28,780 nt of DNA from Polychytrium aggregatum. Taxonomy: Eukaryota > Chytridiomycota > Chytridiomycetes > Polychytriales. The notes beneath the pieces are model-generated. The model was not told where the DNA came from and did no database searches. It was given only the letters and a program-made list of their open reading frames with translations. Location: NCBI RefSeq assembly GCF_025602895.1, contig NW_026516508.1:1-28780 (forward strand). The letters are read 5' to 3'. The position numbers and the translations under genes were made by a program. Of the stretch, positions 6,169 through 28,780 are shown one piece after another. Each line of letters starts with the position of its first letter. Positions within the stretch are counted from its first letter, which is position 1.

Positions 6169-6200
6169 GGTGGTGCGATGCAGCGATTATCGCAGAGCAG

Positions 6201-10326: not shown

Positions 10327-13300
10327 AAACTACGGCCACTCCTGCGAACAATAAGTCCAGGCTTGTCGGGGTACCGGCGGTGGAAGTCGGCTATCTTGTC
10401 GGGAGCGTTAACGTAGTTGGCGGGCTCCCAGCTGCGATGATCAGTCGAGTAGCCCTTCCAATCAACGAAATAGCTCAACTTACCGCGGACCAGCTTGGAG
10501 TCGAGGATCTCCTGGACTTCATACTCCAAGTGGTCGTCGACGCGGACTGGCGGAGGAGGGTCTTGGATGCGGCCGGGGAGGGTGTTCGACTTGTGGGGCT
10601 CAAGGAGGGAGACATGGAACACCGGATGGATCTTGAGATCCTTGGGAAGGTCGAGGCGGAAGGCGAGGGAACCGATGGCTTCGACGATCTTGTAGGGTCC
10701 GATGCGCTGGTAGTCCAACTTCTTGCTTGGACGGGTGGTCTTGATGTTGCGTGTTAGGACCCAGACTTGATCGCCAGGAGCGAACTTGGGAGCGTCGGAC
10801 TTGTGGGCATCCGCAAAGCGCTTGTAGTCCGCCTTGGCCTTCTCGAGGTTCTCCTTCAGCAACGCCAAGTTGTGCTGAAGGTGTTCGACTCGGTCGGTCG
10901 CGGAGGGGACATCGAGGCTGGAAGGAAGGACCGGAGACTCGAATCGAGGGTTGAAGCCGTAAGTCGCCAGGAACGGGGAGGCCTTGGTCGAGGTGTGCTC
11001 GAGGTTGTTGTATGAGAACTCGGCGAGCGGGAGCAGCATCGCCCAGTCATCCTGCTGGTACGAGGTGTAGCAGCGGAGATGCTGGTTGATGACTTGGTTG
11101 ACCCGCTCAGTCTGTCCATCGGTTTGGGGGATGGAACGCCGTGGACAGACTGGTCTTGATGCCGAGTTCTGAGCACAGGGCCTGCCAGAACCGCGAGGTG
11201 AACTGGCTTCCTCGGTCCGAGACGATGTTGTCCGGGAGACCGTGGAGACGGAAGATGTTGTCGAGGAACAGCGACGCTGTTTCCTCGGCACTTGGGAGGG
11301 ACCGACAGGGAAGGAAGTGGGCCATCTTGGTCAGGCTATCGACGACGACAAAGATGCAAGTCTTGCCGTTGGACTCGGGGAGGTCGGTGATAAAGTCCAT
11401 CGTCACCAGAGACCAGGGTCGCGATGCCGTCGGGAGGGGCTGCAAGTATCCAAACGGCTTATGTCGAGGGACTTTCGAGCGTGCACAAGTGTCGCACGTC
11501 GAGACATAAGCCTGGACATCCTTGCGGATCGAGGGCCACCAGAACTGCCTCGAGATCAGTGCTCGAGTCCGCCGAATGCCAGGATGTCCAACAGCGACAG
11601 GATCGTGGCATGACTTGAGGACGGGGACTCGACACGACTCTGGCACAACGATCTTGTCCATGAAGGTGAGGAGATCCATCCTTCAGGACATACTTGGGAT
11701 CGTTGCGGAGCTGGTCCAGGGACGGGTCCTTTGGTTGCTCCTCGGCAATGAGCTTGAGCAAGTCCACAGGGCGAGTGGAACTTGCATCCGAGGAGCGACG
11801 GACGGCACAGGCGAACGACGAAGGTGGCAGCAACGGGGGAGGCTCCTTGGACACAGGTGCGGACGGAGGGACGTAGTCCGGGCGGCGGGAGAGAGCGTCG
11901 GCCTTGCCGTTCTTTGGACCGGGGAGGTACTGGATCCGGAGGTCGAACCGAGACAGGAACTGCGACCACCGGGCGTGTCGCTGGTTGAGGATGCGGGCCG
12001 ACGCCAGGTATTCCAAGTTCTTGTGGTCGGTAAGGACTTGGACTGGGTGTTGGGCGCCTTCGAGGTAGTGTCGCCAGACCTCGAATGCCTCCTTGATGGC
12101 CAAGAGCTCCTTCTCATAGATGCTGTAGTTGCGTTCAGCATCCATGAGCGTGCGGGAGTGGAAAGGAGCACGGGTGCAGGTGGCCATCGGAGCCGCGCTG
12201 GGACAGGACGCATCCGATCGCAAAGTCTGAGGCATCAGACTCCACGACAAAGGGCTTGGATGGGTCGGGGTGCGCAAGGACGGGCTCGGAGACGAAGGCT
12301 TCCTTGAGGGACTGGAAAGCCTTGTGGGCGTCGGGGGACCAGCGGAAGACCTGGGACTTCTTGAACAGGAGCGTGAGCGGACCGGCGATCTTGGCATATC
12401 CGTCAATGAAGCGACGGTAAAAGTTCGAGAACCCAATGAAGGAGCGAAGGTCGGAGACATTGCGGGGGACGGGCCAGTCGACAATGGCGGAGAGCTTTGC
12501 TCGTTCCATCTCGATACCCTTGGGCGAGATGACGTAGCCGAGGAACGAGACCTTGTCCTTGGAGAACTCGCACTTCTCCAGCTTGCAGTACAACTTTGCA
12601 GCCTGGAGCTTGGCCAGGACCTGCTTGACGTGATTTGCATGCTGAGTGGGGTCAGCGCTGTAAATCAAGATGTCGTCAAGGTAGGCAATCGCAAAGTTGT
12701 CCAGCTCCTCACGAAGGACATCGTTGATGAAGTGCTGGAAGGTGGCCGGAGCATTGGTGAGTCCAAAGGGCATCACCAAGTACTCGAACTGGCCGTAACG
12801 AGTGCGGAAGGCCGTCTTCCACTCGTCGCCTGCGCGGATACGCAGCAGGTTGTAGGCCCCGCGGAGGTCCAGCTTCGTGAACACCTTCGCGTCCCGGACT
12901 CGGTCCAGCATCTCGTTGATCAACGGTAAGGGATAACGATTCTTGACCGTGATCGTGTTCAATGCGCGATAGTCCACGCAGAGACGCAGAGAGCCGTCCT
13001 TCTTCTTGACGAAGAGGATCGGGGAACCGGCGGGAGAGGACGAAGGACGGATGAACCCTTTGACGAGGTTGTCGTCGAGGTATTCACGAAGGGCCTTGAG
13101 TTCGGGCTCTGACAGGGAGTAGAGTGGTCCGAACTTGGGGGTCTTGCCGGGCTCCAGGTCGATCGGGCAGTCGTACGTCCGGTGCGGGGGCAACGAGTCG
13201 GCTTCCTGCTTCGAGAAGACTGAGCCAAACGACTTGTACTCCTCTGGGATCGACGTCGAGAGGGGCGTCGGATCCGGATCGGTGGCAGGAAGGACGAGGA

Positions 13301-14341
13301 CTTGGAACACAGTCAGGGGGTCGGGGCTAGACTGTGTGTCGAGGACGGACTGCTCCAACGACTTGTACCTGATCGCTTGGACACGGACAGGAGCGGGGCT
13401 GGGAGCAACGGGACCGGGGAGACCAGGACGGACGGAGACGAGACCGGAGGGACCAGGACGAGCAGCACAGGAACAGGGCACCTCACTCGGAACACAATCA
13501 GAATAACGTTGAGCGATCACTTTATTCTGATCATCTTCGCGAGTACAAACGGTGCGAGGCGAAGAAGCGAGCACCACAGTGGTGTCGGTAGAGGCACGAG
13601 GGAAAACATTGGGTGTGTCGCCAACAAGAGGAAGGGGAGAAGGAGAAACGGAAGAAACGGAAGGGAGGGAAGAGGCATCCACAACCTTGAGGATGTGGTT
13701 TGCAGGACGGGGAAGGCAAAGGAGTCCACGAGCCCAGTGGAACCTGGGTTCGATGGACTGCAGCCAGGGATAGCCAAGGATAACAGGTTGGTGGGGAGAC
13801 TTAATGACATCAAAGGAAAGGTGTTGAGTGTAGTCCCCAAGAACAATCTTGAGGGGTTCCGTCTCAAAAGTGATGGGGCCGGAAGAAAGTGGCTGGCCAT
13901 CGACACCTTGGACAGGGAGGGGAGTGGATTTGGAAACGAGGGGGACCGAGAAGCGGTCAACAAAGCTCTCGTCGATGAAGTTGCCGGAGGCACCAGAATC
14001 GACGAGAAGTTGGCAAGAGAGGGAGCGACCAGAAGGGAGAACAAGAGAAGCGGAAAAAACGGGAGAAGACGAAGAAATCGACGAGACGCACGAAGAAGGC
14101 TCGGAGCAGAGATCAGTGTCGGCAGCATGGTTCGAGCAGATGACCAAGTTCGCAGGTGGTGTGGAGATCGGGAGCTCTGTCAAAGACATCTGGGAGCCAG
14201 ATGTGCCCTTAGAAGAGGCGGGTTTGACAGAGTGCGATCCACCACCGACTACATTGATCATTCCACACATAGCCATGCGTTCGACACTTACCTCATGCTC
14301 CTTACCATCGACGCTTGCTTCTGGAGGAAGGGGAGACGGCT

Positions 14342-14384
14342 CCAGATCTAAGCCTCCACTTAGATCTGGGCCTGGTCGTTTCCC
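14342..14384 (-). promoter_or_regulatory. A1 gag-pol -1 programmed frameshift signal
   Basis: Slippery heptamer GGGAAAC at 14384-14378 in the correct phase for X_XXY_YYZ (gag codons TCG GGA AAC). An 8-nt spacer follows, then a perfect 11-bp hairpin: arms CCAGATCTAAG (14369-14359) and CTTAGATCTGG (14352-14342), loop TGGAGG. The gag stop codon TAA (14362-14360) lies in the 5' arm. The pol frame is open through the site. GGGAAAC is a known retroviral slippery sequence. Confidence 0.8.
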
Positions 14385-15343
14385 GACTCGAAGTGTTCCT
14401 CCTCACCATCATCGTAGACGATGGTTCGGACAACCTTCGAACGGGGACGGGAGCCGGGAGCCTGAGGACGGGAGCCGGGGAAGCGGGAACCAGAGGCGGG
14501 AGCACGGGAGCCGGACTTGAGGGGGCAGGACTTGGCGACGTGGCCGGGCTTGCCACAGCGGAAGCAGAGGCGCTCCTGGAAGCGGCGGTTCTTCTCCTCG
14601 GGGGTCAGGCGGCTGACGACGGCGGCGTCGATCTGCATCGGCTCGGAGTAGAGAACCGGAGGCTCCTGGGCGGGCGGCTGGAAGGACGGGGTGCGGGAGT
14701 TGAAGGCCTGGGTGCCGAAGGAAACAGGGCCAGTGTTTCGGAGCTCGTTGTTGAGCTCGATGATGCGTGCATCGATCTTGAGGCAACGCTCGACGAACGG
14801 GACCAAGCGGAGAGGGAGAGGGTCGATGAAGGAGAGGCGCTGCTTGATCTCCCTCGACAGGCCACGGCGGAAGGCGGAGATCTTGGCTTCGTCGTTCCAG
14901 GGAAGGTCGGCGGCAACGCGGAGGAACTCTGAGGCATAATCCATGCACGAGCGGTTGCCCTGTGCCATGGAGGAAAGGAGCAGCTCGGCAGTGTGGGTGC
15001 GGTCGGGATCGTCAAACGCTTGGCGAAAGCGTTCCATGAACGAGTCGAACGAGTGCAGGATTTGATCGTTCGACTCGATCAAGGGAGTCGCCCACTGGAG
15101 GGCCGGACCAGTGAGCAAACTCAAGACGTAACCCACCTTGACTTGCTCGGACGGGAACCTGGATGCCTGGAGCATCATGAGCAGGCGGCACTGGTTGACG
15201 AAGGGGCGGAACTTTGACCTGGTGCCGTCGAACTTGTCCGGGGTCGGCATGTGCGGGAGCTGTGGGGCGGCGGAAGAATGTGTGGTCCGGAGGAGAACCA
15301 GTTCCTCCTGGAGGGCAACGATTTGGGCCTGGAGTTGGTCCAT
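14360..15343 (-). CDS. gag: A1 Gag
   Basis: 327 aa, intact, from ATG 15343 to TAA 14362-14360. Structural protein that forms the particle and binds the element's RNA. A coiled N-terminus (LQAQIVALQEELVLL) precedes the retrotransposon gag capsid region at about 35-200 (KFDGTRSKFRPFVNQC, ALQWATPLIE, FMERFRQAFDD). A CCHC zinc knuckle lies at 260-273 (CFRCGKPGHVAKSC), followed by a basic GSR/P-rich tail that would bind RNA. Pol is reached by -1 frameshifting 7 codons before the stop. This is the commonest product expected from the element. Confidence 0.93.
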   Translation of the reverse strand: MDQLQAQIVALQEELVLLRTTHSSAAPQLPHMPTPDKFDGTRSKFRPFVNQCRLLMMLQASRFPSEQVKVGYVLSLLTGPALQWATPLIESNDQILHSFDSFMERFRQAFDDPDRTHTAELLLSSMAQGNRSCMDYASEFLRVAADLPWNDEAKISAFRRGLSREIKQRLSFIDPLPLRLVPFVERCLKIDARIIELNNELRNTGPVSFGTQAFNSRTPSFQPPAQEPPVLYSEPMQIDAAVVSRLTPEEKNRRFQERLCFRCGKPGHVAKSCPLKSGSRAPASGSRFPGSRPQAPGSRPRSKVVRTIVYDDGEEEHFESGNDQAQI

Positions 15344-15450
15344 GTGGGCTTTGAAAGTGGGGAGCGAGGATGCAGGGAAGACAACAGAGAATAGAAGGAT
15401 GAGGGCAGCAACGAAGCCTCAGCCAAGCAGGTGGTCAGACAGAGAGAGGG

Positions 15451-15461
15451 AGTTCGAACAA
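15451..15461 (-). other. A1 self-primer binding site
   Basis: On the minus strand TTGTTCGAACT, 2 nt inside the 5' LTR boundary. It is perfectly complementary over 11 nt to AGTTCGAACAA at the predicted RNA 5' end (15566-15556). No tRNA-type TGG start is present here. This is the arrangement used by self-primed Tf1/sushi elements. Confidence 0.8.
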
Positions 15462-15463
15462 TA

Positions 15464-15848
15464 TGTGAGGACCACGACAAGCAACGACACTGGACGACCA
15501 GGTGCTTGGCGAACAACGATAAGCTATATTACGACTTATCAGATAACAACAAGTGTTGTTCGAACTGAAGATACAAAATGGGTGCAAGAAAGGAGGGGCT
15601 TTATAGCCAAGAGGGAAACCGAAGGGCGAAAGTGGGCGAGAAGGGTGGAGCGACAAACGAGGGACGAGAAGGGGGTGCGAGGGAGGCGGAGCATCCAGCG
15701 AGAGGGGCGAAGCACAGCGCAGTCGGAGGCGAAGTAAGAGTCATCGGCGCCAGCCAATCAGGGAATACACGCCAAGACAAACAAACATGACTCACGGTGC
15801 ATCACGCGCAGCAGTCCACACGTGTTCCCAACGTGCATGATCATCACA
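15464..15848 (-). repeat. LTR-A, 5' LTR of A1
   Basis: 385 bp, TGTGA...TCACA. TATAAAG on the minus strand begins at 15605; the predicted transcript start is 15566. It is closer to the A2 LTR at 18956 (three differences) than to its own partner at 9929 (about seven). Confidence 0.92.
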
Positions 15849-15939
15849 TCGACCAAGCTGTGATCGCACTCATGTTGCGTTACCTTGCTCCTGGCAGGGA
15901 GATGCCCGCCTGGATCTCCAAGGACTGAGTGCCAGACCA

Positions 15940-16058
15940 TCATGCCCTGCTCCGTGCAAGTCGCTCGCGTGTGTTGGTCTTGCGTTTCGTACCAAACACG
16001 GCATCTTCGTCGTCCAGCCCAAAGGCACCGCCATAATCAATAAATATCTCTTCTCCAT
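15940..16058 (-). pseudogene. C-terminal remnant of a SET-domain protein
   Basis: Minus-strand frame starting at the LTR-B boundary: GEEIFIDYG, then about 29 more residues rich in Asp then Lys/Arg, ending at TGA 15942-15940. GEE-I/L-x-IDYG is the hallmark end of a SET lysine methyltransferase domain, whose Tyr helps bind S-adenosylmethionine. Only 38 codons remain; the rest of the SET domain would lie beyond the B insertion, outside the window. The 91 bp from 15849 to 15939 would be its 3' UTR. The match rests on one short motif, so it is tentative. Confidence 0.45.
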
Positions 16059-16477
16059 TGTGAGGAGTGAACAAGCGCAAGGACGAAGACCAAGTGCTTG
16101 GTATGAGCTTTATTAGCTTTTAGCCCCGAACACCAAAGAACAAGTTTTGTTCGAACTGGTGTTCAACATAGGCTCAGACATGCAGGGCTATTTATAGACC
16201 GGGAGAAGGTCGAGGGGCAAAAGTGGGCGAGAAGGGTGGAGCATCACAGAGAAGCGAGAAGGGGGTGCGAGAGTGGCTGGTGTGCAAGCGAGAGAGGCTT
16301 GGCACAGCCCGGGGACATGTGCCGAGCGGTGGGGGAGGCAGGAAACCAGTAGACGCGGGTGGCAACGGCGCGTGCTCATGCATGGGGGCAAACAAACACG
16401 TGGGGACTCATGATTGGTGCGGAGGGCGAGAGCATGCGGGACAGTCTCATTGGTCCGTTGTGATGCTGGTCATCACA
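16059..16477 (-). repeat. LTR-B, 3' LTR of element B
   Basis: 419 bp, TGTGA...TCACA. On the minus strand the TATAAATA box starts at 16196, the predicted start AGTTCGAACAA at 16157 (39 nt on), and AATAAA at 16114-16109. The left flank TCCAT (16054-16058) is the expected target-site duplication. Confidence 0.92.
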
Positions 16478-18955
16478 CTATCTCCTCCTCAAACTACGGC
16501 GTGTTCCATCTTGAGTTCTCCTGGGGCCAGGCTTGTCTGGGTAGCGTCGGTGGTACTCCGCGGCCACCGTTGGGGCAAAGACAATGTCGGCGGGCTCCCA
16601 ACTTCGATCGGTGACCGGGTAGCCTTTCCAATCGATGAGATAGTGCAGCTTTCCGCGCACGAACTTGGAGTCTAAGATCTCTTCGACCTCCCACTCCAAG
16701 TTCCCATCGATGACCACCGCAGGGGGCGGCGCTTGCACCCGACCCGGAAGCGAGTTCTTCTTGTAGGGCTCAAGAAGAGACACATGGAACACCGGGTGCA
16801 CCTTTATGTCCTTTGGCAAGTCCAGGCGGAAAGCCAATGTCCCGACGGCCTCGAGGATGGTGAATGGTCCAATCCTCTGGTAATCCAGCTTCTTGCTTGG
16901 GCGAGTGGTGCTGATGTTACGAGTCAGCACCCAGACTTGATCGCCTGGACGCAAGTCGGGAGCCTGGGACCTCCGGAGATCTGAGAAGTGCTTGTAGTCA
17001 GACTTTGCCTTCTCAAGATTCTCCTTCAACAGTGCCAGGTTCCGCTGGAGATGTTCAACCCTCTCCGTGGCAGAGGGAACATCAGGGCCGCCAGCGACAA
17101 CGGGGACTTCGAACCTTGGGTGGAACCCATAGGTTGCCAAGAATGGCGAGGCATGTGTTGACGAGTTCTCGAGGTTATTGTAAGAGAACTCGGCCAACGG
17201 CAGCAGCTCGGCCCAGTCATCTTGCTGATACGACGTGTAACAGCGCAGGTATTGGTTGATGACCTGGTTGACCCTCTCAGTCTGTCCATCGGTCTGGGGA
17301 TGGAAGGCCGTGGACAGACTGGTTTGGATCCCGAGCTGCGTGCAGAGTGCCTTCCAGAACCGAGAGGTGAACTGACTTCCTCGGTCTGAAACCACTGTGT
17401 CGGGGAGGCCATGGAGACGAAAGACATTGTCGAGGAACAGTGACGCAGTCTCCTCCGCCGACGGCAGTGAACGCCAGGACATAAAGTGTGCCATCTTTGT
17501 GAGGCTGCATACCACCACAAAGATGCAGGTGTGACCCTTGGACTTTGGCAGATCAGTGATAAAGTCCATGGTCAGTGTCCCCCAGGGTCGATCGGCTGTC
17601 TGGAGTGGCAACAGGAACCCAAACGGCTTGTGTCGCGGAGCTTTCGAGCGTGCACAGGTGTCGCACGTCGAGACGTACTCTTTGACATCTTTCCGATAGG
17701 TTTGCCACCAAAACTGTCGCGATACCAGAGCCAGAGTCCGTCGGATGCCTGGATGACCCACAGCGACTGGGTCATGGCACGACTTGAGCGCCGGAACTCG
17801 GCACGACTCTGGGACTACAATCCTGTTCTGGAAGGTGAGGTACTGGCCATTCCAGACGAACTTCGGGTCACGACGGTATTTGTCTAGACCGGGATCCCGA
17901 GCCTGCTCTTCGGCTATGAGCTGCAGCAAGTCCACAGGGTCACTGCGACTTGCAACCGAAGAGCGGGCGTCTCTGCTTCGGAGCACGCGTATCACCGCGG
18001 CAGGATCGAGAAGCAGAGGCGGATCCCTCGACACGGAGGCCGACGAAGGGATGTAGTCCGAGCGACGAGACAGGGCATCGGCCTTGCCGTTCCTCGCACC
18101 AGGACGGTACTGGATGCGGATGTCGAACCGAGACAAGAACTGGGACCACCGTGCATGGCGCTGGTTCAGGATGCGAGCCGTCGCCAGGTACTCCAAGTTC
18201 TTGTGATCGGTCAGAACGGCAACGGGATGCTGGGCGCCTTCGAGGTAGTGTCGCCACGCCTCGAAAGCCTCCTTGATCGCCAACAGCTCTTTCTCGTATA
18301 TGCTGTAGTTACGTTCAGCATTCGAGAGTGTCCGCGAATGGAACGAGCAAGGATGAAGGCGATCATCAGCACCCCGCTGGGAGAGCACGCATCCAAGCGC
18401 AAAGTCCGACGCATCTGACTCTACGACGAACGGCTTGGATGGGTCCGGATGCACCAGAACGGGCTCCGAAACGAAGGCATCCTTCAAGGATCTGAATGCT
18501 TTATCGGCTTCGCGGGACCACTGGAAGCCATGCGTCTTCCGGAAGAGCCGAGTCATGGGCCCCGCGATCTTTGCGTATCCATCGATGAAGCGTCGATAGA
18601 AGTTCGCAAACCCGACAAAGGATCGAAGATCCGAGATGTTGCGCGGTATGGGCCAATCCAAGATCGCAGAGAGCTTGGATCGCTCCATACCGATGCCCTC
18701 GGGCGAGACCATGAAACCAAGGAACGAGACCGAGGTTTTGGAGAACTCGCACTTCTCCAGCTTGCAATACAGCTTTGCAGCTCGGAGCTTCGAGAGGACC
18801 TGCTTGACGTGCTCTACATGCTGCGACGGATCAGCACTGTAGATCAAGATATCGTCAAGATACGCAATTGCGAACTGGTCCAACTCGGTGCGCAGGACGT
18901 CGCTGATGAAGTGCTGGAACGTCGCTGGCGCGTTGGTGAGCCCAAAGGGCATCAA
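16478..18955 (-). CDS. pol: Element B Pol, N-terminally truncated, otherwise intact
   Basis: About 825 uninterrupted codons from the RT region MPFGLTNAPATFQHF to a TAG at 16480-16478 that abuts the LTR. Domains in order: RT second half with YLDDILIYS, RNase H ([12 protein letters not shown] ... DALSRR), integrase HHCC zinc region ([10 protein letters not shown] ... CDTCARSK), DDE catalytic core (MDFITDLP, VSDRGSQF, TDGQTERVNQ), RIGPF module, and a chromodomain (EWEVEEILDSKF ... WKGYP ... SWEP). Protease, early RT and gag are missing because of the A2 insertion. No frameshift or stop is seen, so B was probably functional when hit. Confidence 0.93.
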   Translation of the reverse strand: MMPFGLTNAPATFQHFISDVLRTELDQFAIAYLDDILIYSADPSQHVEHVKQVLSKLRAAKLYCKLEKCEFSKTSVSFLGFMVSPEGIGMERSKLSAILDWPIPRNISDLRSFVGFANFYRRFIDGYAKIAGPMTRLFRKTHGFQWSREADKAFRSLKDAFVSEPVLVHPDPSKPFVVESDASDFALGCVLSQRGADDRLHPCSFHSRTLSNAERNYSIYEKELLAIKEAFEAWRHYLEGAQHPVAVLTDHKNLEYLATARILNQRHARWSQFLSRFDIRIQYRPGARNGKADALSRRSDYIPSSASVSRDPPLLLDPAAVIRVLRSRDARSSVASRSDPVDLLQLIAEEQARDPGLDKYRRDPKFVWNGQYLTFQNRIVVPESCRVPALKSCHDPVAVGHPGIRRTLALVSRQFWWQTYRKDVKEYVSTCDTCARSKAPRHKPFGFLLPLQTADRPWGTLTMDFITDLPKSKGHTCIFVVVCSLTKMAHFMSWRSLPSAEETASLFLDNVFRLHGLPDTVVSDRGSQFTSRFWKALCTQLGIQTSLSTAFHPQTDGQTERVNQVINQYLRCYTSYQQDDWAELLPLAEFSYNNLENSSTHASPFLATYGFHPRFEVPVVAGGPDVPSATERVEHLQRNLALLKENLEKAKSDYKHFSDLRRSQAPDLRPGDQVWVLTRNISTTRPSKKLDYQRIGPFTILEAVGTLAFRLDLPKDIKVHPVFHVSLLEPYKKNSLPGRVQAPPPAVVIDGNLEWEVEEILDSKFVRGKLHYLIDWKGYPVTDRSWEPADIVFAPTVAAEYHRRYPDKPGPRRTQDGTRRSLRRR

Positions 18956-19339
18956 TGTGAGGACCACGACAAGCAACGACACTGGACGACCAGGTGCTTG
19001 GCGAACAACGATAAGCTATATTACGACTTATCAATAACAACAAGTGTTGTTCGAACTGAAGATACAAAATGGGTGCAAGAAAGGAGGGGCTTTATAGCCA
19101 AGAGGGAAACCGAAGGGCGAAAGTGGGCGAGAAGGGTGGAGCGACAAACGAGGGACGAGATGGGGGTGCGAGGGAGGCGGAGCATCCAGCGAGAGGGGCG
19201 AAGCACAGCGCAGTCGGAGGCGAAGTAAGAGTCATCGGCGCCAGCCAATCAGGGAATACACGCCAAGACAAACAAACATGACTCATGGTGCATCACGCGC
19301 AGCAGTCCACACGTGTTCCCAACGTGCATGATCATCACA
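18956..19339 (-). repeat. LTR-A, 3' LTR of A2
   Basis: 384 bp, one base shorter than the other copies because of a single deletion (CTTATCAATAAC versus CTTATCAGATAAC in A1). It begins directly after GGCATCAA of the B RT gene. Confidence 0.93.
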
Positions 19340-19835
19340 TCATCCCCTCCCCAAACTACGGCCACTCCTACGAACAATAAGTCCAGGCTTGTCGGGGTAC
19401 CGGCGGTGGAAGTCGGCTATCTTGTCGGGAGCGTTAACGTAGTTGGCGGGCTCCCAGCTGCGATGATCAGTCGAGTAGCCCTTCCAATCAACGAAATAGC
19501 TCAACTTACCGCGGACCAGCTTGGAGTCGAGGATCTCCTGAACTTCATACTCCAAGTGGTCGTCGACGCGGACTGGCGGAGGAGGGTCTTGGATGCGGCC
19601 GGGGAGGGTGTTCGACTTGTGGGGCTCGAGGAGGGAGACATGGAACACCGGATGGATCTTGAGATCCTTTGGAAGGTCGAGGCGGAAGGCGAGGGAACCG
19701 ATGGCTTCGACGATTTTGTAGGGTCCAATGCGCTGGTAGTCCAACTTCTTGCTTGGACGGGTGGTCTTGATGTTGCGTGTTAGGACCCAGACTTGATCGC
19801 CAGGAGCGAACTTGGGAGCGTCGGACTTGTGGGCA
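19340..19835 (-). CDS. pol: A2 Pol, C-terminal fragment
   Basis: About 165 codons of integrase C-terminus (APGDQVWVLTRN, RIGPYKIVEA) and chromodomain (EYEVQEILDSKL ... WKGY ... SWEP), ending in a TGA against the LTR. The open frame ends at 19835 where element C is inserted. It agrees almost completely with A1 and shows no frameshift in the part present. Confidence 0.9.
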
Positions 19836-20626
19836 TGTTAGAGTCCAAAGGGGACTCAACGGCAAAAGAAGAAGTGAGCTCGAAGTGAGCTCAGGGAAAG
19901 CAAGGGTAGAGTCCGAAGTGGACTCGGAGAGGGAGCGAGGGAAGCAAAGATCCGTTCAAGATAAGACTTGTCTCGAAATGAGACGTGAGGAACACTCAGA
20001 GAATAAAGTAGAAGGCACTTTATTTAGTCCTATTTTGAACGCTAAGGTTCGACTACACATCGCGGGGGTCAGGCTATTTATAGACAAGTCCGGACTTGGC
20101 AGCGAAGGGCGGCCAAGGGAGGGAAAAGTGGGCGATCGAGCAGGGCGAAGGGGGCGATGCACGAACGAGGGCCGAGAAGGACCACCGAGACAGGCAGAGA
20201 ACCAAAGCGAGAGAGGCGCAAGCAAAAGCGAAGCACCTGGCAGGAGAAACGTGCAAAGGCGAAGCAATGTGACTCAACGTCCAAGAAGCGGATTGGTCAA
20301 GTATAAGGTTGGGGCAAATGCATGCGAGATGAACAAGAGATCGGGGCGGTCAGGCAGGTCATGAGTCACCGGTGGGGGGACACATGACCGGCAGCCGAAT
20401 TGCAACCAATCGCAGCAAGGCGCGTGCACAAACAAACCGGCGCGTGCGAAGAAGACAAAGGAAGCGGAGCAGCGCGGGAAAACGGAAGTGCGGAAGGAGC
20501 GGAAAAGACAGGCAAAAGGCGGAAAATCGGAGGGGAACTGCAAGGCTACACACAAACAAACAGAAAGGCAAAAGAATAGCCAAGTGTGCAGTCAAAGTGG
20601 AGAACAAGCAGGAGCTATCCCTAACA
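19836..20626 (-). repeat. LTR-C, complete 3' LTR
   Basis: 791 bp bounded by TGTTAG...CTAACA (6-bp terminal inverted repeat). TATAAATA on the minus strand starts at 20082; the predicted transcript start AGCGTTCAAAAT is at 20043, 39 nt on. The 19841-19984 part carries four small hairpins. Confidence 0.93.
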
Positions 20627-20638
20627 TCATCCCCTTCC
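20627..20638 (-). other. Element C polypurine tract
   Basis: GGAAGGGGATGA on the minus strand between the pol stop codon and the LTR. It shares the GGGGATGA end with the A tract. Confidence 0.8.
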
Positions 20639-23600
20639 TTAGCGACGAACTCCGGACGTCGCCTTCGGCTTTGAGGGATAGCGAAGGTGGAAGTCAGCAA
20701 CAAGATCAGTGGCGTGGGAAACATTGGCAGCGGGCTCCCAAGACCGGTCAGTCTCGGAATAGCCCTTCCACTGAACCAAGTACTGTAAGCGACCACGGAA
20801 GAGCCGAGAATCGAGAACAGTCTCGACCTCAAACTCTTCCTGGGAGTTAACAAGAATGGGAGGTGGTTCTGGTTGGGTGAACTCGGGAACAATGTCCTTC
20901 GTTCGGGGTTCAAGGAGGGATACATGGAAAACGGGGTGAACTTTAAGTGTGGAAGGGAGTTTAAGCTCAAAGGCAACGGGGTTGATGCGGCGAAGAACTT
21001 TAAAGGGGCCAAGCTTTTTCTGGTCAAGCTTGTTGGAGGGACGAAGGGTGCGAATGTGGCGACGATCCAGAAAAACGAGGTCGCCAACGGAGATGTCGGG
21101 AGTGGGGAGACGGGATTTGTTGGCCTGCACAGTGTAGGACTCTTGGGCAACCCGGAGGTTGGCCTTGAGATCCTCGAGAACGGTCTGAAGTCGGTCGACA
21201 CGTTCTTCGGCAGAGGGCACAACAGAGGGATCACGAATGATAGAGGGATCGAAAATGGGGTGATGGCCATGGACTGCAAAGAAGGGAGTCATGCCAGTGG
21301 AGGTGTTTTCCGAGTTGTTGTAAGTGAACTCGGCAAGGGGAAGGTGAAGGGTCCAGTCGTCTTGCAGGTAATTGCAATGGATACGCAAATACTGCTCGAT
21401 GACCTGGTTGAGAACCTCGGTCGAACCGTCGGTCTCGGGGTGGAAGGCAGAAGAAAGGGAAATCTTCGTCTTCAGAAGCTCATTGAAGCGCCTCCAGAAG
21501 GCCGAAGTAAACTGAGTTCCTCGGTCCGAAACAATAGACCGGGGACAACCATGCAAGCGGAAGATGTGGGAGAGGAAGAGTTCGGCGGTTTGCTCGCCTG
21601 TAACCGTCTTCGTGGTGGGCACAAAGTGTGCTTGTTTGGACAGGCGGTCCTTAACCACGAAGATCGAGTCAAAACCGTTCGAAGGTGGGAGATCCGTGAT
21701 GAAGTCCATCGACAGGTCCCACCAACGTTCGGAAGGAACGGGGAGAGGATGAAGTAAACCATAAGGGGAGTGACGGGACGGCTTGGCTCGCTGGCACGCT
21801 TCACAATTAGCAATGAAGCGACGCACAGACTTACGAAGCCGGGGCCAGTGAAAGTCCCGGGAGACGAGCTCAACGGTCTTGGCAAGACCAAAGTGACCAG
21901 CGGCAGCGGAGCAGTGACGTTGCTCAAACACTTTGAGCTGGAGCTCGGGGGAAGGGACAACGATCAGGTCTTTAAAGTAAAGGAGACCGTCACGGAAGGA
22001 GTAATCGCCATCAAGACGTTTGGCGTTAAAGTCAGAAAGGAGGGAACAAGAAAGGGTGGCAGCTCGAATCTCGGAGAGAAAGTCGGGATTCGAGCCGATA
22101 ACGGTGATGCTGTCGAGAGAAATAGACTCGAACAGCTGAAGGAAGTTGGTGGAGTGGAGGGAGTCACCAGGCTTTATCTCAAAGTCAGAACGGCGACTGA
22201 GAGCATCGGCTTTGGTGTTGAGGCGACCAGGGCGGTGGTAAATGCGAAAGGCAAAGTCAGAAAGGAATTGGGCCCACCGGAACTGGCGGCGAGAAAGTTG
22301 GGAAGCGGAAGTGAACCGGGTAAGGTTCTGATGATCGGAGAAAACAAGAGTGGGATGATCGGGGTCGGCAGCCATCAAGTAATGACGCCAGGCAGTAAAG
22401 GAGTCGACAATGGCAAGGAGCTCTTTGTCGTGGGTGTCATAATTCACCTCGGCAGGACGGAATTGCCGAGAGTGAAAAGCAACGGGGTGAAGAGCGCCGT
22501 CAGGGTCAAACTGGGAAAGGACGGCACCCAAAGCAAAGTCAGAAGCATCGGGCTCGATGACAGCGGGTTTGGAGAAATCAAAATAGCGAAGAATAGGTGC
22601 GGAAGTGAAAGAACGTTTAAGAGAATCAAAAGCCTCTTGGGCCTCGGGAGACCAAGAGAAGGTGGAGGATTTGGTGGTGAGTGAAGTCAAAGGACGAGCA
22701 AGTGCAGAAAAGTCCTTGACGAAGCGGCGGTAAAAGTTTGCGAAACCAATAAAAACTTGGATGTCGCGAGCAGAAGAGGGAACAGGCCAAAGAGAAACGG
22801 CCTCGACCTTGGCAGGGTCCATTTTGATGCCATCGGCAGAAATGATCATGCCGAGAAAATCAACTTCAGAAAGGTCAAAAGAACACTTGGCCGGATTGAC
22901 CTTAAGGGAGTGTTCACGAAGGCGAGAAAGAACAAGCTTAACATGCTCCTCATGCTCCTGGGGATCTTTTGAGAAGATCAGGATGTCGTCAAGATAAATG
23001 ACAACACAGACACCAAGGAGGTCCGAGAAGATGTCGTTCATAAAAAACTGGAAAGCAGCGGGGGCATTCGAAAGACCAAAGGGGATAACATTGTACTCAA
23101 ATGAGCCAGATTTGCAAACAAAAGCAGTCTTCCACTCATCGCCCTTCTTGACACGAACCAAGTGGTAAGCATCAGGAAGGTCGAGGTGTGAGAAGACGCG
23201 GGCAGAAGAAAGTTTATCCAGAAGATCCTGGAAGAGGGGAAGTGGGTAACGGTTCTTCTTCGTGATGGCATTGAGGCCCCGGTAGTCGACGCAAAGGCGA
23301 AGACCACCATTGGGCTTCTTCACGAAGAAGCAGGGAGCACCAACGGGAGAAGAGGATTTGGAGATCCAACCACGTGCGAGGGCGTTGGTCAGATACTCCG
23401 AAAGAGCAGATTCCTCGGCCGGGGACAAAGGATAGACTTTCCCCGGCTTTGGCAAACGAGGTTCCTTTCCATCCTCGGTCCGTACAAACTCAATAGACAA
23501 GTCATACGGACGATGAGGAGGCAAGGAAGAAGGAGGGTCAGACTTGAGGCTGAAAACGTCGCCAAACTCATTGTATTTGAGTGGGACACCTCGAGAGTCA

Positions 23601-24460
23601 ACGGGGGTGCCAGACTCGGCATACACCTTCGTCGTGAGCACGGACCTTATCGACACCGTAGGATACGTCTCCGGCGAAGGAGGACGGATATCCATTTGGG
23701 CAGCGAAAATGTCGAGCTTGTCTTCCCGTGCAAGACGGAGAAGACTCGCCGCATTAACGAGCTCAATGTCGGGTGAAGATGAGGCCGTTGGCTCTTCAGA
23801 AAGCGAAGCAGAGTCAAGGCGGGAAGAAAGGGAAGGCGAAGTGCCAAAGGAGGGAACCGGTGTAAGGGATGGACCGGAGGGAGGAGTCAAAGGCGAAGTG
23901 CCCGAAGGGGGAGGCGAGGAGCCGGAAGTGGACGAAGTGTCCAAGGAAGAAGCAGAGACATCCGCGAGGATGTGTCCATCGGCAAGGCAAGAGGGATCGG
24001 AGAATGAAAGGGAGAGGGACTTCCAATTGACAACTGGATTATGCAAGCGCATCCAGGGAAGACCAAGAGTGATGGGAGTGGTGGAGAGTCGAGTCACAAG
24101 AAAAGAAATCGACTCGGTGTGGGAACCAATGGTCAGAGTCAAAGGCACGGTTTGGAAACGAATGAAACCGGCCGAAGAGCCATCAGCAAGGGAAACGGAG
24201 TAAGGAGTAGAAAGAGGGATAAGAGAGAGTTTATGGAGATCCGCAAAGGCAGGATCAATGAGGGCAAGAGCGGTGCATCCATCATCAATAAAGACAGAAA
24301 GGGAGATGGAGACCGGGCCAGAAAGACTCATGACGATAAGAGTGGCCGGAAGAAGAAGCTTATCGTCCGATAGTGACGAGTCAGAGGGGGAAGATGTTCG
24401 TATCGCCGAACAGACCACCTCGCTTACTTGCGAGGTGCTGCTCGGCTGTGGGCATTTCCC
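20639..24460 (-). CDS. pol: Element C Pol (protease-RT-RNase H-integrase-chromodomain)
   Basis: About 1270 codons without a break in the -1 frame from the slippery site at 24460 to TAA 20641-20639. Protease region around 24290, with FIDDGCTA where D-S/T-G is normal. RT: FFVKKPNGGLRLCVDYRGLN and YLDDILIFS (YLDD at 22996-22985). RNase H: EPDASDFALGAVLSQ ... TKADALSRR. Integrase: HHCC zinc region ending CEACQRAK, and DDE core (MDFITDLP, VSDRGTQF, ETDGSTEVLNQ). Then KLGPFKV, then the chromodomain (EFEVETVLDSRL ... WKGYSETDRSWEP). It is made as a Gag-Pol fusion by frameshifting. It is more distant from A and B than they are from each other. Apart from the protease motif all catalytic residues are present. 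Confidence 0.95.
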   Translation of the reverse strand, partial: GKCPQPSSTSQVSEVVCSAIRTSSPSDSSLSDDKLLLPATLIVMSLSGPVSISLSVFIDDGCTALALIDPAFADLHKLSLIPLSTPYSVSLADGSSAGFIRFQTVPLTLTIGSHTESISFLVTRLSTTPITLGLPWMRLHNPVVNWKSLSLSFSDPSCLADGHILADVSASSLDTSSTSGSSPPPSGTSPLTPPSGPSLTPVPSFGTSPSLSSRLDSASLSEEPTASSSPDIELVNAASLLRLAREDKLDIFAAQMDIRPPSPETYPTVSIRSVLTTKVYAESGTPVDSRGVPLKYNEFGDVFSLKSDPPSSLPPHRPYDLSIEFVRTEDGKEPRLPKPGKVYPLSPAEESALSEYLTNALARGWISKSSSPVGAPCFFVKKPNGGLRLCVDYRGLNAITKKNRYPLPLFQDLLDKLSSARVFSHLDLPDAYHLVRVKKGDEWKTAFVCKSGSFEYNVIPFGLSNAPAAFQFFMNDIFSDLLGVCVVIYLDDILIFSKDPQEHEEHVKLVLSRLREHSLKVNPAKCSFDLSEVDFLGMIISADGIKMDPAKVEAVSLWPVPSSARDIQVFIGFANFYRRFVKDFSALARPLTSLTTKSSTFSWSPEAQEAFDSLKRSFTSAPILRYFDFSKPAVIEPDASDFALGAVLSQFDPDGALHPVAFHSRQFRPAEVNYDTHDKELLAIVDSFTAWRHYLMAADPDHPTLVFSDHQNLTRFTSASQLSRRQFRWAQFLSDFAFRIYHRPGRLNTKADALSRRSDFEIKPGDSLHSTNFLQLFESISLDSITVIGSNPDFLSEIRAATLSCSLLSDFNAKRLDGDYSFRDGLLYFKDLIVVPSPELQLKVFEQRHCSAAAGHFGLAKTVELVSRDFHWPRLRKSVRRFIANCEACQRAKPSRHSPYGLLHPLPVPSERWWDLSMDFITDLPPSNGFDSIFVVKDRLSKQAHFVPTTKTVTGEQTAELFLSHIFRLHGCPRSIVSDRGTQFTSAFWRRFNELLKTKISLSSAFHPETDGSTEVLNQVIEQYLRIHCNYLQDDWTLHLPLAEFTYNNSENTSTGMTPFFAVHGHHPIFDPSIIRDPSVVPSAEERVDRLQTVLEDLKANLRVAQESYTVQANKSRLPTPDISVGDLVFLDRRHIRTLRPSNKLDQKKLGPFKVLRRINPVAFELKLPSTLKVHPVFHVSLLEPRTKDIVPEFTQPEPPPILVNSQEEFEVETVLDSRLFRGRLQYLVQWKGYSETDRSWEPAANVSHATDLVADFHLRYPSKPKATSGVRR
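24405..24460 (-). promoter_or_regulatory. Element C gag-pol -1 programmed frameshift signal
   Basis: Slippery GGGAAAT at 24460-24454 in X_XXY_YYZ phase (gag codons TCG GGA AAT). After a 7-nt spacer comes a two-part stem: outer GCCGA/TCGGC (24446-24442 with 24409-24405), inner CACCTCGC/GCGAGGTG (24437-24430 with 24423-24416). The six-base loop AAGTAA contains the gag stop codon. Same layout as in A1 with a different structure. Confidence 0.75.
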
Positions 24461-25377
24461 GAGTTCCGTTTGACCAGAACCGGGCACTGCTGAACATCGC
24501 GACTGCCGGGACAAGACTTTTCCCCGCAGTACAAGCAGAGACCCTGCTCACGACGTCGCTTTTTCTCGACGTCGGAGAGCTTAGCAGGGCGGACCGAGAC
24601 AGAGTCAAGGTCCATGGGAGTGGGGGCAGAAGCGGAGGAAGAAGAAACATGCGCGGGAGAATGGTGGTGATGGGGAGCAGAGCGAGAAGAAGGAGGAGGA
24701 GGTTGGGAACGGGAGGAGACCTTGAGACGATGAAGGGCATCGTCGTACTCGACCGCTGCCTTGATCAACTCAGGCAAGGAAGCGGGAGCGGGGCGGAGAC
24801 CGATGAGGTGGAACTTGACCTCAGACTTCAAACCCTCCTTGAAGAAGTGCATCTTGGTGGGTTCATCGGTCTGGACTCGGGCGGCGAGCTGGACAAACCG
24901 GGTGGCGAAGGCTTGGCAGGACTTAAGTTGAACCAAGCGCTTGAGGTCGTTGAGGGCCTTATCTTGCGAGGAGGCCGTGTCCTCACCGAAGGTCGACTTG
25001 AGGGCAACTTCGAAGTCGGCGAAGGAGGCAGGGAAGCGGTTGGCCATGTAGAAGGCTGCTTCGTACCACTTGAAAGCCTCACCGCGGAGGAAGGAGGTGG
25101 CATAAAGGACCTTCTGGCGCTCGGGCGCGAAGAAGGCGGGATCGGCGAGGAAAACGAGGTGGCACTGGGCGAGGAAGGCCGTCGTCTCGTCGCGGGAACC
25201 TAGGAACTCCTTGGGCTTGTTCACCTGGTAGACCTGGCGGGGAGCGGCGGCGGGAGCTTGCAGATCTTGGATCTGACAATGGAGAGCAGCGTTCTGGGTC
25301 ATGAGGGCGTTCATACGCTCCTCCATGCGCGCCAGATACGCATTCAAGTCTGCAGGGGGTGCAGCAGGCTCAGCCAT
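24424..25377 (-). CDS. gag: Element C Gag
   Basis: 317 aa from ATG 25377 (MAEPAAPPADLNAYLARMEE) to TAA 24426-24424. Coiled N-terminus (about 10-40), capsid region with KEFLGSRDETTAFLAQC and FLRGEAFKWYEAAF, a Ser/Pro/His-rich linker, and a C-terminal Cys cluster (CLYCGEKSCPGSRDVQQC) where a CCHC knuckle is expected; the usual His position is Cys. The frame is open upstream into the LTR but without another ATG, so 25377 is the likely start. The RNA leader from the predicted start to this ATG is about 280 nt. Confidence 0.9.
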   Translation of the reverse strand: MAEPAAPPADLNAYLARMEERMNALMTQNAALHCQIQDLQAPAAAPRQVYQVNKPKEFLGSRDETTAFLAQCHLVFLADPAFFAPERQKVLYATSFLRGEAFKWYEAAFYMANRFPASFADFEVALKSTFGEDTASSQDKALNDLKRLVQLKSCQAFATRFVQLAARVQTDEPTKMHFFKEGLKSEVKFHLIGLRPAPASLPELIKAAVEYDDALHRLKVSSRSQPPPPSSRSAPHHHHSPAHVSSSSASAPTPMDLDSVSVRPAKLSDVEKKRRREQGLCLYCGEKSCPGSRDVQQCPVLVKRNSGNAHSRAAPRK

Positions 25378-25434
25378 CGGATCGACGAGGGAAAGAGAGG
25401 CGAAAGAAGAAGAAAGGCCGGGAAGCCAAGAGGG

Positions 25435-25446
25435 AGCGTTCAAAAT
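25435..25446 (-). other. Element C self-primer binding site
   Basis: ATTTTGAACGCT on the minus strand, 2 nt inside the 5' LTR boundary, perfectly complementary over 12 nt to AGCGTTCAAAAT at the predicted RNA 5' end (25656-25645). The sequence differs from the A site but pairs with its own LTR. Confidence 0.85.
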
Positions 25447-25448
25447 GA

Positions 25449-26005
25449 TGTTAGAGTCCAAAGGGGACTCAACGGCAAAAGAAGAAGTGAGCTCGAAGTG
25501 AGCTCAGGGAAAGCAAGGGTAGAGTCCGAAGTGGACTCGGAGAGGGAGCGAGGGAAGCAAAGATCCGTTCAAGATAAGACTTGTCTCGAAATGAGACGTG
25601 AGGAACACTCAGAGAATAAAGTAGAAGGCACTTTATTTAGTCCTATTTTGAACGCTAAGGTTCGACTACACATCGCGGGGGTCAGGCTATTTATAGACAA
25701 GTCCGGACTTGGCAGCGAAGGGCGGCCAAGGGAGGGAAAAGTGGGCGATCGAGCAGGGCGAAGGGGGCGATGCACGAACGAGGGCCGAGAAGGACCACCG
25801 AGACAGGCAGAGAACCAAAGCGAGAGAGGCGCAAGCAAAAGCGAAGCACCTGGCAGGAGAAACGTGCAAAGGCGAAGCAATGTGACTCAACGTCCAAGAA
25901 GCGGATTGGTCAAGTATAAGGTTGGGGCAAATGCATGCGAGATGAACAAGAGATCGGGGCGGTCAGGCAGGTCATGAGTCACCGGTGGGGGGACACATGA
26001 CCGGC
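25449..26005 (-). repeat. LTR-C, 5' LTR, cut by element D
   Basis: First 557 bp of LTR-C, with no difference seen from 19836-20392. It ends at 26005 (...GACCGGC), where LTR-D begins. The missing 234 bp of U3 should follow D. Includes TATA box and transcript start (25656). Confidence 0.95.
25454..25597 (-). other. Four tandem hairpins in the element C RNA leader
   Basis: Plus-strand view: GAGTCC-AAAGG-GGACTC (25454-25470), GAGCTC-GAAGT-GAGCTC (25489-25505), GAGTCC-GAAGT-GGACTC (25522-25538), GTCTC-GAAAT-GAGAC (25583-25597). Each has a 5-6 bp stem and a 5-nt loop; in the RNA two loops read ACUUC and one AUUUC. Stems differ in sequence but keep pairing. Also present in the 3' LTR at 19841-19984. 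Candidate packaging or dimerisation signal. Confidence 0.6.
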
Positions 26006-26314
26006 TGTAACGTCCACTACTGGGACGTTGGGGCAAGACGGGGAGGGAGGGGGTACAAGACAAGACAGGACGGGGCAGAACAGGGCGGTGCTAGGCTACT
26101 CTAGCGGACGGGTGAGCTCGGGGAGCACTTACGTTTATTCACGATAAAACCGAACTCCAGACAAACGGGGGGAACGGGGGCAACCCGCAGGTATACCCTG
26201 CGGTGGCCTGCCTGCGGTGCGTGAAAACGCAAAGCGCAGCACAGGTCACGACCCACTGCGCCGCGCAGTACGCGCAGTACGCGCAGCACAGCGTCGGAGA
26301 TACCATCTCCTACA
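26006..26314 (-). repeat. LTR-D, 3' LTR
   Basis: About 309 bp, TGTAACG...CTCCTACA; the inner end is judged from the TGTA/TACA inverted repeat because the partner LTR is outside. It holds a 7-bp hairpin whose loop is the TATA core (26185-26203), AATAAA on the minus strand (26139-26134), a small inverted repeat AACGTCC/GGACGTT (26009-26029), and GCGCAGTAC repeats near 26265-26285. Confidence 0.75.
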
Positions 26315-26323: not shown

Positions 26324-28780
26324 TTAAGAAGGCTTCCTGCGAGGAGCCCTGCGTGTGCTCTTTATTTGGGGCTCCTCGAGGTGTTTACCGTATTTACTCA
26401 GCTCCTCGGGTGCATGGGACAAGTCCTCCAGTGTTTGCCATGTGTTGCCCGAGTGTGGGTAACCAACCCACTTGACATAAAACCGAAGTGACCCATCAGC
26501 CACTTTCTTGTGCCTCACGATCCTTTCGACTTCATATTCTTGAGTATAGTATTGTCCGAGGTCGTCTTCCAGTGGTGCGTCGTCCGGGACACCTTCGTCG
26601 GCGTCGGGGAACTGTGCTGGACTGCGGGTCGTGTGGCGACGCAGCTTGGACACATGGAAGACAGGATGGAGCTTGCTTCCAGGTGGCAAGTCCAACAGGT
26701 AGTTGAGGGGACTGGGTCGGGCCGCTATCTTGAACGGTCCTCGGTACTTGGGCAACAACTTCTTTGACTGGGCTTCGGGGACCTTGATGTTGTCGGCGTC
26801 CAGGTAGACAAGGTCTCCAACTTCAAAGGAGACATCCTGGTGTCGGCGGTCGTAGTACTTCGCCATCACTTGTTGCGCATCCGTGAGCGCGTCGGCGATC
26901 ATCTTGTGTCGGACTTGATGATCTTTGACAAAGGCACTTGGTTTGGGAGGCAATCCAGCCGTGGACTCGGTCAGTGTCAAGGAGGTGGGAACATCAGGCT
27001 GGAATCCGTAGAGCGCCTCAAAGGGGCTCAAGCCAGTTGTGCTCGACTTGGCGGTGTTGTATGCAAACTCTGCATGACTCAGCTGTATGTCCCAGTCGTC
27101 TTGGCTGGTCGAGGCGTATGTCCTCAGGTATTGCTCGAGGGTGCGGATCGTCCGCTCGGACTGTCCATCCGTTTGTTGGTGGTGCGAGGTTGACATGTTC
27201 AGCTTGGTGCCGAGATGGTCGAACAGACTTGTCCAAAACAAGGAGGTGAATCGGGGGTCTCGATCACTGACGATGGACTTTGGGAGGCCGTGGTGCTTGA
27301 ACACATGCTTGAAGAACAGCAGTGCAAGGTCAGGCGCGGAGCATGTCGTCTGGCACGGCACAAAGTGTGCCATCTTGCTGAACCTGTCGACAAAGACAGC
27401 GATTGCATCGTGGTCCAACTTGGTCGTCGGTAGATGCGTGATGAGATCCATGGACATGCTGGTCCAGGGGCGGTCGGGAACAGGCAGGGGTTGCAGCAAT
27501 CCTTGCTCTCGGGTCGTGCGTGACTTGACCATCTTGCAGGTATGGCAGGACTCGATGTACTTCTCGACGGTGCGCTTCATTCCAGGCCAGTATGCGACTT
27601 TGGCCAGTCGGTCGTATGTCTTCTCGACTCCAAAGTGTCCAGCGAGGGGCGAGTCGTGGACCTCTTGGAGCAACTTGGTCTTCAACGACGGAATGTCCGG
27701 CACACAGACACGGCTGTCCTTCTTCAGGAGGAGCAGGCCATCACGCACTGTGTACTCGGATGATTCGTCGTCCTTGGGGAGCTTAGACACCTTTCGGAAC
27801 AGTTCTCCGAACTGTTTGTCGTTGGCGATGTTGTCTCGGACAACATCCAGCATCGTGTTGTCGACACTGACAGTCGACTCGTACAGTGACGCCAATTGGT
27901 AGTCGGGGCGTCGGGACAGTGCGTCAGGCACCACATTGAGTTTGCCTTTCTGGTATACAACCTCGTAGTTGTACTCGGCGAGGAACTCCATCCATCGCGC
28001 TTGGCGTCGGCTCAGGTTCTTCTTGGTGTCGAGGTAACGCAGTGACTGGTGGTCCGTCACAATCTTGAAGGGCTTGGCGGTACCGTGGAGGTACACTCGG
28101 AACTTCTGCAGCGCGTAGATGATCGCAAGCTGCTCCTTCTCGTGCACGGGATAGTTGATCTCGTGTTGGGACAGTTTGCGCGACTCGAAGGCAACGGGCC
28201 TTCCCTCCTGCATCAAAACAGCTCCCACCGCAAAGTCGGAGGCGTCGGTGTGCACGGAGACATCCGTGTTCGGGTCGAACACAGCGAGGACAGGAGCGTT
28301 CGTCAAGGCGTGCTTGAGGGTCTCGAACGCTTGGCGTTGTGGGTGGTCCCACACGAAGGGGCACTCTTTGCGGAGTAGGTCTGTGAGTGGACCGGCAGTG
28401 CGCGCCAGATCGGGGATGAATCGGCGGTAGTAGTTGACGAGACCGAGAAACGACTGCACGTCAGAGACGCATGCGAGCGGCGGCCACTCGACCACAGACT
28501 TGACCTTGGCGGGGTCGACTTCGATTCCTCTTCCTGAGACAACGTGTCCCAGGAACGGGACTTGATTCTTGAAGAACTCACACTTGGACAGTTTGGCATA
28601 CAACTTGTGCTCGCGTAGCTTGGCCAGCACGCGGGCGACATGACCTTCATGGGTCGCTTCATCCTTGCTGTACACAAGGATATCATCCAGGTACACGATG
28701 ACAGAGTTGTCGAGCTCTTGGCGGAACACATCGTTCATCAGCTGCATGAACGTGGCAGGTGCGTTCGTCAATCCGAACGG
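26324..28780 (-). CDS. pol: Element D Pol, partial (RT second half to chromodomain)
   Basis: 819 uninterrupted codons from the right edge (PFGLTNAPATFMQ) to TAA 26326-26324. RT with YLDDILVYSKD, RNase H (VHTDASDFAVGAVLMQ ... DALSRRPDY), integrase HHCC (GHFGVEKTYDRL ... CHTCKMVKS), DDE core (MDLITHLP, VSDRDPRF, TDGQSERTIRT), GPFKI module, chromodomain (YEVERIVRHKKV ... VKWVGYPHSGNTWQ) and a basic tail. All catalytic residues in the visible part are present. Its upstream part is outside the window. Confidence 0.95.
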   Translation of the reverse strand, partial: PFGLTNAPATFMQLMNDVFRQELDNSVIVYLDDILVYSKDEATHEGHVARVLAKLREHKLYAKLSKCEFFKNQVPFLGHVVSGRGIEVDPAKVKSVVEWPPLACVSDVQSFLGLVNYYRRFIPDLARTAGPLTDLLRKECPFVWDHPQRQAFETLKHALTNAPVLAVFDPNTDVSVHTDASDFAVGAVLMQEGRPVAFESRKLSQHEINYPVHEKEQLAIIYALQKFRVYLHGTAKPFKIVTDHQSLRYLDTKKNLSRRQARWMEFLAEYNYEVVYQKGKLNVVPDALSRRPDYQLASLYESTVSVDNTMLDVVRDNIANDKQFGELFRKVSKLPKDDESSEYTVRDGLLLLKKDSRVCVPDIPSLKTKLLQEVHDSPLAGHFGVEKTYDRLAKVAYWPGMKRTVEKYIESCHTCKMVKSRTTREQGLLQPLPVPDRPWTSMSMDLITHLPTTKLDHDAIAVFVDRFSKMAHFVPCQTTCSAPDLALLFFKHVFKHHGLPKSIVSDRDPRFTSLFWTSLFDHLGTKLNMSTSHHQQTDGQSERTIRTLEQYLRTYASTSQDDWDIQLSHAEFAYNTAKSSTTGLSPFEALYGFQPDVPTSLTLTESTAGLPPKPSAFVKDHQVRHKMIADALTDAQQVMAKYYDRRHQDVSFEVGDLVYLDADNIKVPEAQSKKLLPKYRGPFKIAARPSPLNYLLDLPPGSKLHPVFHVSKLRRHTTRSPAQFPDADEGVPDDAPLEDDLGQYYTQEYEVERIVRHKKVADGSLRFYVKWVGYPHSGNTWQTLEDLSHAPEELSKYGKHLEEPQIKSTRRAPRRKPS

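Follow-up and report, generated by a model that had tools for sequence, protein, structure and literature searches.

The question raised by this locus is from which primer its LTR retrotransposons begin reverse transcription. The window, i.e., the whole stretch of 28,780 nucleotides of Polychytrium aggregatum DNA that was analysed, lies on contig C231 of the genome searched (64.7 Mb, 418 contigs), and it contains the nested LTR retrotransposons A, B, a second A piece, C and D, all of them on the minus strand (Table 1). According to Pfam, a chromodomain is located downstream of the integrase in these four families, A, B, C and D. The pol frame of A is split in the window copy, with further pieces at 11459-12664, 11107-11682 and 10314-11330.

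Table 1. Features of the window, with the evidence on which each placement is based.
Feature	Position	Strand	Description and basis
Element A 3′ LTR	9929..10313	-	direct-repeat comparison, sequence ends
A protease-RT frame	12138..14402	-	ORFs and Pfam
A gag frame	14363..15418	-	Pfam Retrotrans_gag, Ty3_capsid, zf-CCHC
A leader arm of second duplex	15422..15436	-	GACCA-CC-TGCTTGGC; downstream of primer-binding site; duplex calculation
A primer-binding site (predicted)	15451..15461	-	TTGTTCGAACT; 2 nt inside LTR; sequence
Element A 5′ LTR	15464..15848	-	385 bp, TG...CA; direct repeat of 9929-10313; ends read from sequence
A U5 arm of second, crossing duplex	15496..15510	-	GCCAAGCA-CC-TGGTC; folding/duplex calculation
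A self-primer (R start), predicted RNA nt 1-11	15556..15566	-	AGTTCGAACAA; sequence, geometry scan, cross test
Element A TATA box	15600..15605	-	first T = 15605; sequence
Element B 3′ LTR	16059..16477	-	R start AGTTCGAACAAA at 16157-16146
B pol, 3′ part	16481..19015	-	Pfam: integrase, SH3_Tf2-1, chromodomain
Second A-family LTR	18956..19339	-	R start 19057-19047; direct repeats and sequence
Element C 3′ LTR	19836..20626	-	791 bp; sequence and direct repeats
C pol frame	20642..24547	-	1302 aa; Pfam: RT, RNase H, integrase, SH3_Tf2-1, chromodomain
C gag frame	24427..25503	-	Pfam
C primer-binding site (predicted)	25435..25446	-	ATTTTGAACGCT; 2 nt inside LTR; sequence
Element C 5′ LTR	25449..26005	-	D interrupts at 26005; sequence and repeats
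C self-primer (R start)	25645..25656	-	AGCGTTCAAAAT; sequence, fetched copies, cross test
Element C TATA box	25690..25695	-	first T = 25695; sequence
Element D 3′ LTR	26006..26314	-	other D copies: 5′ LTR, then TGGTAGCATCGG, initiator-tRNA-type site
D pol	26327..28780	-	open at window end; Pfam, chromodomain

Several features of the surroundings may be recorded here. The flanks of element A (9920-9928 and 15849-15858) have no common target-site duplication by eye, and the left flank ends in a broken B LTR while the right one does not; since the flanks do not share a duplication, a rearrangement or a recombination between A copies is suggested. The VID27 gene at 3715-6186 (minus strand; VID27_N, PH-like and WD40-like domains) is an ordinary host gene beside the repeats, and its relatives are distant, the two best named ones (Coemansia and Dentiscutata) being 46-49% alike over 41-46% of the protein. 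The only other stretch to share the highest score with the window, for the B LTR as well as for the C leader, is G000:C388:9473-24646, and the B flank, as far as displayed, is identical in the two (L039 and L040); C388 may in part represent a further copy or haplotype of the window.

On the minus strand, the LTR of element A ends with ...CACA, two nucleotides follow (15463-15462), and then comes the site TTGTTCGAACT, to which the word at the predicted start of the RNA, AGTTCGAACAA, is exactly complementary over 11 nt. In element C the arrangement is the same and the sequence is different: two nucleotides after the LTR end, the site ATTTTGAACGCT is exactly complementary to AGCGTTCAAAAT over 12 nt. 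The TATA box reads TATAAA in both elements, and in both the word starts 39 nt past its first T; the LTR of B in the window likewise carries the A word, from 16157, at a spacing of 39 nt. The preliminary description had already placed the two pairings, each 2 nt inside its LTR, and the spacing in the B LTR, and all of these coordinates are correct. It should be noted that GTTCGAAC within the word of A and B is an 8-nt palindrome, so that this word partly pairs in either orientation, a confound that is absent from the words of C and of the families E, G, H and I introduced below. The count of AGTTCGAACAA in the genome is 872 versus 327 for the reversed control; such an excess would be seen with any word from a repeat and is no proof by itself.

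Further families were sought by scanning the window and loci L001-L102 for an ATAAA box and a word lying 36-42 nt from the base before the box, and it was also required that the reverse complement of the word occur 50-450 nt further on, 1-3 nt after CA. The output comprised two isolated 8-mers and seven families whose complementary words measure 9-12 nt. Besides A, B and C, these are family E (word AGTGAATTAT, spacing 41 nt, 2 loci), family G (AGGCAGACAA, 38 nt, 1 locus), family H (AAGAAGAGTCA, 39 nt, 1 locus) and family I (GTCTTGCCA, 39 nt, 4 loci). The sites of all seven families lie 1-2 nt inside the LTR end CA, and the words start 38-41 nt beyond a TATA-like box. This box begins with T in families A, B, C and E, with cytosine in H and I, and with guanine in G. 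The spacing described earlier as fixed at 39 nt therefore stands for A, B, C, H and I and fails for E and G, and it would better be regarded as a tendency within the range of 38-41 nt. The same scan with the word reversed gave no matches; with the word complemented only, it gave two lone 8-mers, and with the word unchanged, 8-mers at three kinds of place.

The LTR ends of E (L057, L064 and L068) and I (L008, L039 and L041) were confirmed at loci where unrelated DNA comes directly after the same LTR tail, while the 3′ LTRs of G and H were not found in two further stretches, and G and H rest on one copy each. An LTR end of D is present at the edge of the stretch of G. When 5′ LTRs were sought without regard to pairing, in a small sample of only 14 stretches chosen from divergent pol pieces, a self-type 5′ LTR was present in eight (C, E, G and H once each, I four times). 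The other six contained, respectively, a 3′ LTR of C, D with a tRNA-type site, pol only, pol of D, a 3′ LTR of B, and gag-pol of C.

In the cross test, the 16 nt after each LTR were compared with the 20 nt of each R. All seven scan-picked families pair with themselves (A over 11, B over 12, C over 12, E over 10, G over 10, H over 11 and I over 9 nt), and foreign pairs reach at most 5 nt, except for A with B, close relatives that share the word. When the six different words were assigned to the sites in all 720 ways, the true assignment was alone in reaching 63, and the runner-up scored 51. The site of D pairs with the R regions of the seven families over 2-4 nt only. Because the families were found by pairing, the cross test shows how specific each word is to its own site; on the frequency of families without pairing it says nothing. 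The view that co-variation between families favours Tf1-type self-priming, formed on A and C, has thus gained the site of B and four more families with words of their own.

Within the families, the copies are very uniform. For A, 30 loci were taken as the best matches from 40 scored of 203 candidates (L013 being the window's own copy), and primer and site are unchanged in 29 of them; both are also present in L037, which is shortened by the end of its contig. A search for the A junction (25 nt, at most 3 mismatches), which would miss strongly diverged copies, gave 97 copies, of which 96 are exact and one is altered in the LTR end only, so that changes of the site number 0 of 97. For C, primer and site are unchanged in all 12 fetched copies (from 40 scored of 601 candidates), and the junction search, again with at most 3 mismatches, gave 243 copies, the best 100 of which are all exact. 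When the rows were picked by the downstream word, the primer was intact in 44/44 rows of A and 21/21 rows of C, these rows including 3′ LTRs, the window and loci that overlap. An unchanged primer in copies picked by the primer word itself was dropped as evidence, since that selection is circular. For B, 33 R regions were found in 30 loci (one being the window's own), and the primer word is intact in all 33; the site CTTTGTTCGAACT follows in 14, and unrelated sequence follows in 19, as would be expected of 3′ or solo LTRs. This site of B, which is missing from the window, pairs over 12 nt with its own RNA start, with 1 nt between the LTR and the pairing. Among the junction copies of A (97) and C (best 100 of 243) no variation of the site was found, hence no covariation within families. 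The joint change of R start and site, for which the preliminary description proposed that copies be collected, is thus seen between families and, as the copies of A and C are almost identical, not within them. As the copies are so alike and were mostly fetched as best scorers, it is the families, not the copies, that must carry the argument.

The seven families A, B, C, E, G, H and I very probably begin reverse transcription by Tf1-type self-priming. In this scheme, the RNA would begin with the first base of the primer word, 38-41 nt beyond the TATA-like box, and its first 9-12 nt would loop back to anneal with the complementary site that lies just within the 5′ LTR. A cut by RNase H at the end of this duplex would release a 3′ end, from which synthesis would proceed through U5 and R. 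A and B would in addition form a duplex between U5 and the leader that crosses the first and yields a pretzel-like knot. From the pairing, its geometry, its change from family to family and the contrast with the tRNA-type family D, we infer the transcript start, the RNase H cut and the priming itself; the earlier statement that the transcript start is pinned to the base was too strong, as complementarity alone cannot pin it.

RNA folding, carried out from the RNA start to 40 nt past the site with a program that does not allow knots, gave the primer-site helix a mean pair probability of 0.82-0.96 in B, C, E, G, H and I (six of the seven families), a value that for the most part only repeats the complementarity. 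When the primer helix was imposed, C alone had an interior more stable than its shuffles (z -5.2), and the interiors of A, B, E, G, H and I show no extra structure against shuffles (z -0.7 to +1.6). In A, the best duplex between U5 and leader (arms in Table 1) has -34.5 kcal/mol, a value as low being reached in 1 of 300 leader shuffles. Its counterpart in B, ATACCAAGCA with TGCTTGGTAT, is found at the equivalent place with one G-C pair replaced by A-U, and none of 300 shuffles is as low. Within 60 nt of leader, C, E, G, H and I gave no second duplex of this kind, with 69 to 287 of 300 shuffles being as low. As modelled, the second duplex of A and B would cross the primer helix, and the resulting pretzel-like knot resembles the duplexes of the Tf1 LTR with site-adjacent sequence; because of this crossing, a knot-free program must choose one helix, and the helix probability of A is only 0.03 because there the second duplex wins over the primer helix. 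The predicted fold of A, favouring a different pairing, and the 8-nt palindrome in the word of A and B, suitable for dimer formation, are what would be expected if the inverted repeats served another job (binding of integrase or Gag, packaging, or initiation of dimers) and priming were done by something else. This is highly improbable, as five other words pair without that palindrome, and the near-fixed distances to the TATA-like box and the LTR end are needed for priming, not for these jobs.

Family D offers a comparison of the predicted self-priming sites with a tRNA-type site in the same genome. In all 8 fetched copies, the 5′ LTR end of D, distinguished by the regular 5158-base spacing of its LTR ends, is directly followed by TGGTAGCATCGG, and this site matches 12 nt of the initiator tRNA-Met, the discriminator A and CCA being assumed; the initiator tRNA-Met genes of the genome have the anticodon stretch CTCATAACC and the 3′ end CCGATGCT. 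Among the matches listed, these genes recur every few kb on C219, C238, C364 and C366, some of them slightly changed, as if within a tandem repeat. D shows that tRNA-type sites exist here, and the word of A and B contains GTTCGAA, which we take to resemble the T loop of tRNA; moreover, the site of family I reads TGGCAAGACC, 2 nt inside the LTR, and a TGG site 2 bp inside is also described for DGLT-A of Dictyostelium (PMC5006619). It is nevertheless very unlikely that the sites after the LTRs of the seven families bind tRNAs and that their match to the LTR is coincidental or secondary, because A, B, C, E, G and H, judged by their words, have no TGG start, the T-loop likeness is missing from C, E, G, H and I, and each of the seven is complementary to its own RNA start, with almost the same spacing.

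The reverse transcriptase (RT) sequences were placed in an IQ-TREE tree of 19 rows, with Ty3 as a long outgroup and no true Tf1 or sushi sequences. A branch with support 98/96 unites A, B, C, E, G, H and I with two fish elements and two basidiomycete proteins annotated as Tf2 or tf2-like, and it also holds three more pieces of this genome and one protein of Powellomyces. D falls outside this branch with two plant elements (chromoviruses), in an order among them that the tree does not resolve. In this tree, without true Tf1 and sushi, the RT branch agrees with the priming type read from the site in 8/8 families; the RT of H (L036) was given to H by position, with about 250 nt unread between the two stretches. 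Pieces L062, L030 and L058 on the 98/96 branch join G, A and H, respectively.

The site of family I, TGGCAAGAC, lies at the position of a tRNA site and starts with TGG, yet it is also complementary to the RNA start of its own family, with the usual spacing, and the self-primer of I consequently ends in CCA like a tRNA. A hybrid of both types, if family I is one, would represent a living intermediate between the two modes of priming. By arithmetic, a TGG start would turn up by chance in one of the six words about once in 10 times, and therefore only a slim likelihood is given to the hybrid. The tRNA query of family I gave 408 matches in the genome; among the matches listed, many are pol of C and none is tRNA-like.

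Chance complementarity picked out by the reader, for which the shortness of the words and the descent of the common A/B word (73% likeness over 176 nt between an A LTR and one copy of the B LTR) could be cited, has practically no likelihood left and is in our view excluded, since a 9-nt exact match with 7 offsets and 3 gaps is expected at about 8e-5 per LTR (21/4^9), the control scans yield nothing above 8 nt, the true assignment is unique among the 720, and seven families obey the rule. With tRNA primers, the primer is copied into the site in each cycle. If the same holds for a self-primer, a mutation arising in R would be carried over into the site, with no need for a double mutation.

The self-priming mechanism itself is not new, and the finding is a sound extension to one more fungus. 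The first 11 bases of the Tf1 RNA are complementary to the primer-binding site, with the RNase H cut between bases 11 and 12 (PMC7175516), and a "pretzel" is formed by duplexes of the LTR with site-adjacent sequence (PMC10085805). The families here resemble Tf1/Tf2 of Schizosaccharomyces pombe, which belong to the Tf1/sushi chromoviruses, in the pairing (11 bases there, 9-12 nt here), in the chromodomain integrase (here in A, B and C by Pfam) and, for A and B, in a predicted second duplex like those of the pretzel; they differ in their primer words and in that the second duplex was not found in 5/7 families. By this analogy, A with 11 nt and the others with 9-12 nt would fit the Tf1 scheme without a new step.

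Outside Tf1/Tf2, a primer-binding site complementary to the predicted 5′ end of the mRNA is reported for Tj1 of S. japonicus and for Tosmo/Tcry (PMC4600332, PMC10085805), the same complementarity as here, in other hosts and with other sequences; the mobility of Tj1 was tested experimentally (PMC4600332), while the families here are known from sequence alone. In the basidiomycete Tcn1 self-priming has been proposed (PMC7175516), and in the Tcn1 clade of non-seed plants it is predicted for most elements (PMC6317226), which is like the present case; it differs in SM-Tcn1 of Selaginella, for which neither tRNA priming nor self-priming was found (PMC2864245). Among the listed papers on self-priming, which deal with fission yeasts, other yeasts, plants and further groups, none was seen to survey such families in early-diverging fungi. 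What is added here is seven families with six different primer words in one fungal genome, with a tRNA-type chromovirus alongside as a control. This D, nested in the same window, shares the chromodomain integrase and the genome with the self-priming families, and it differs from them in the TGG directly at the LTR end, the 12-nt match to the initiator tRNA and an RT outside the self-priming branch. The rule that site and RNA start match, regardless of what the sequence is, is thereby unusually clear within a single host.
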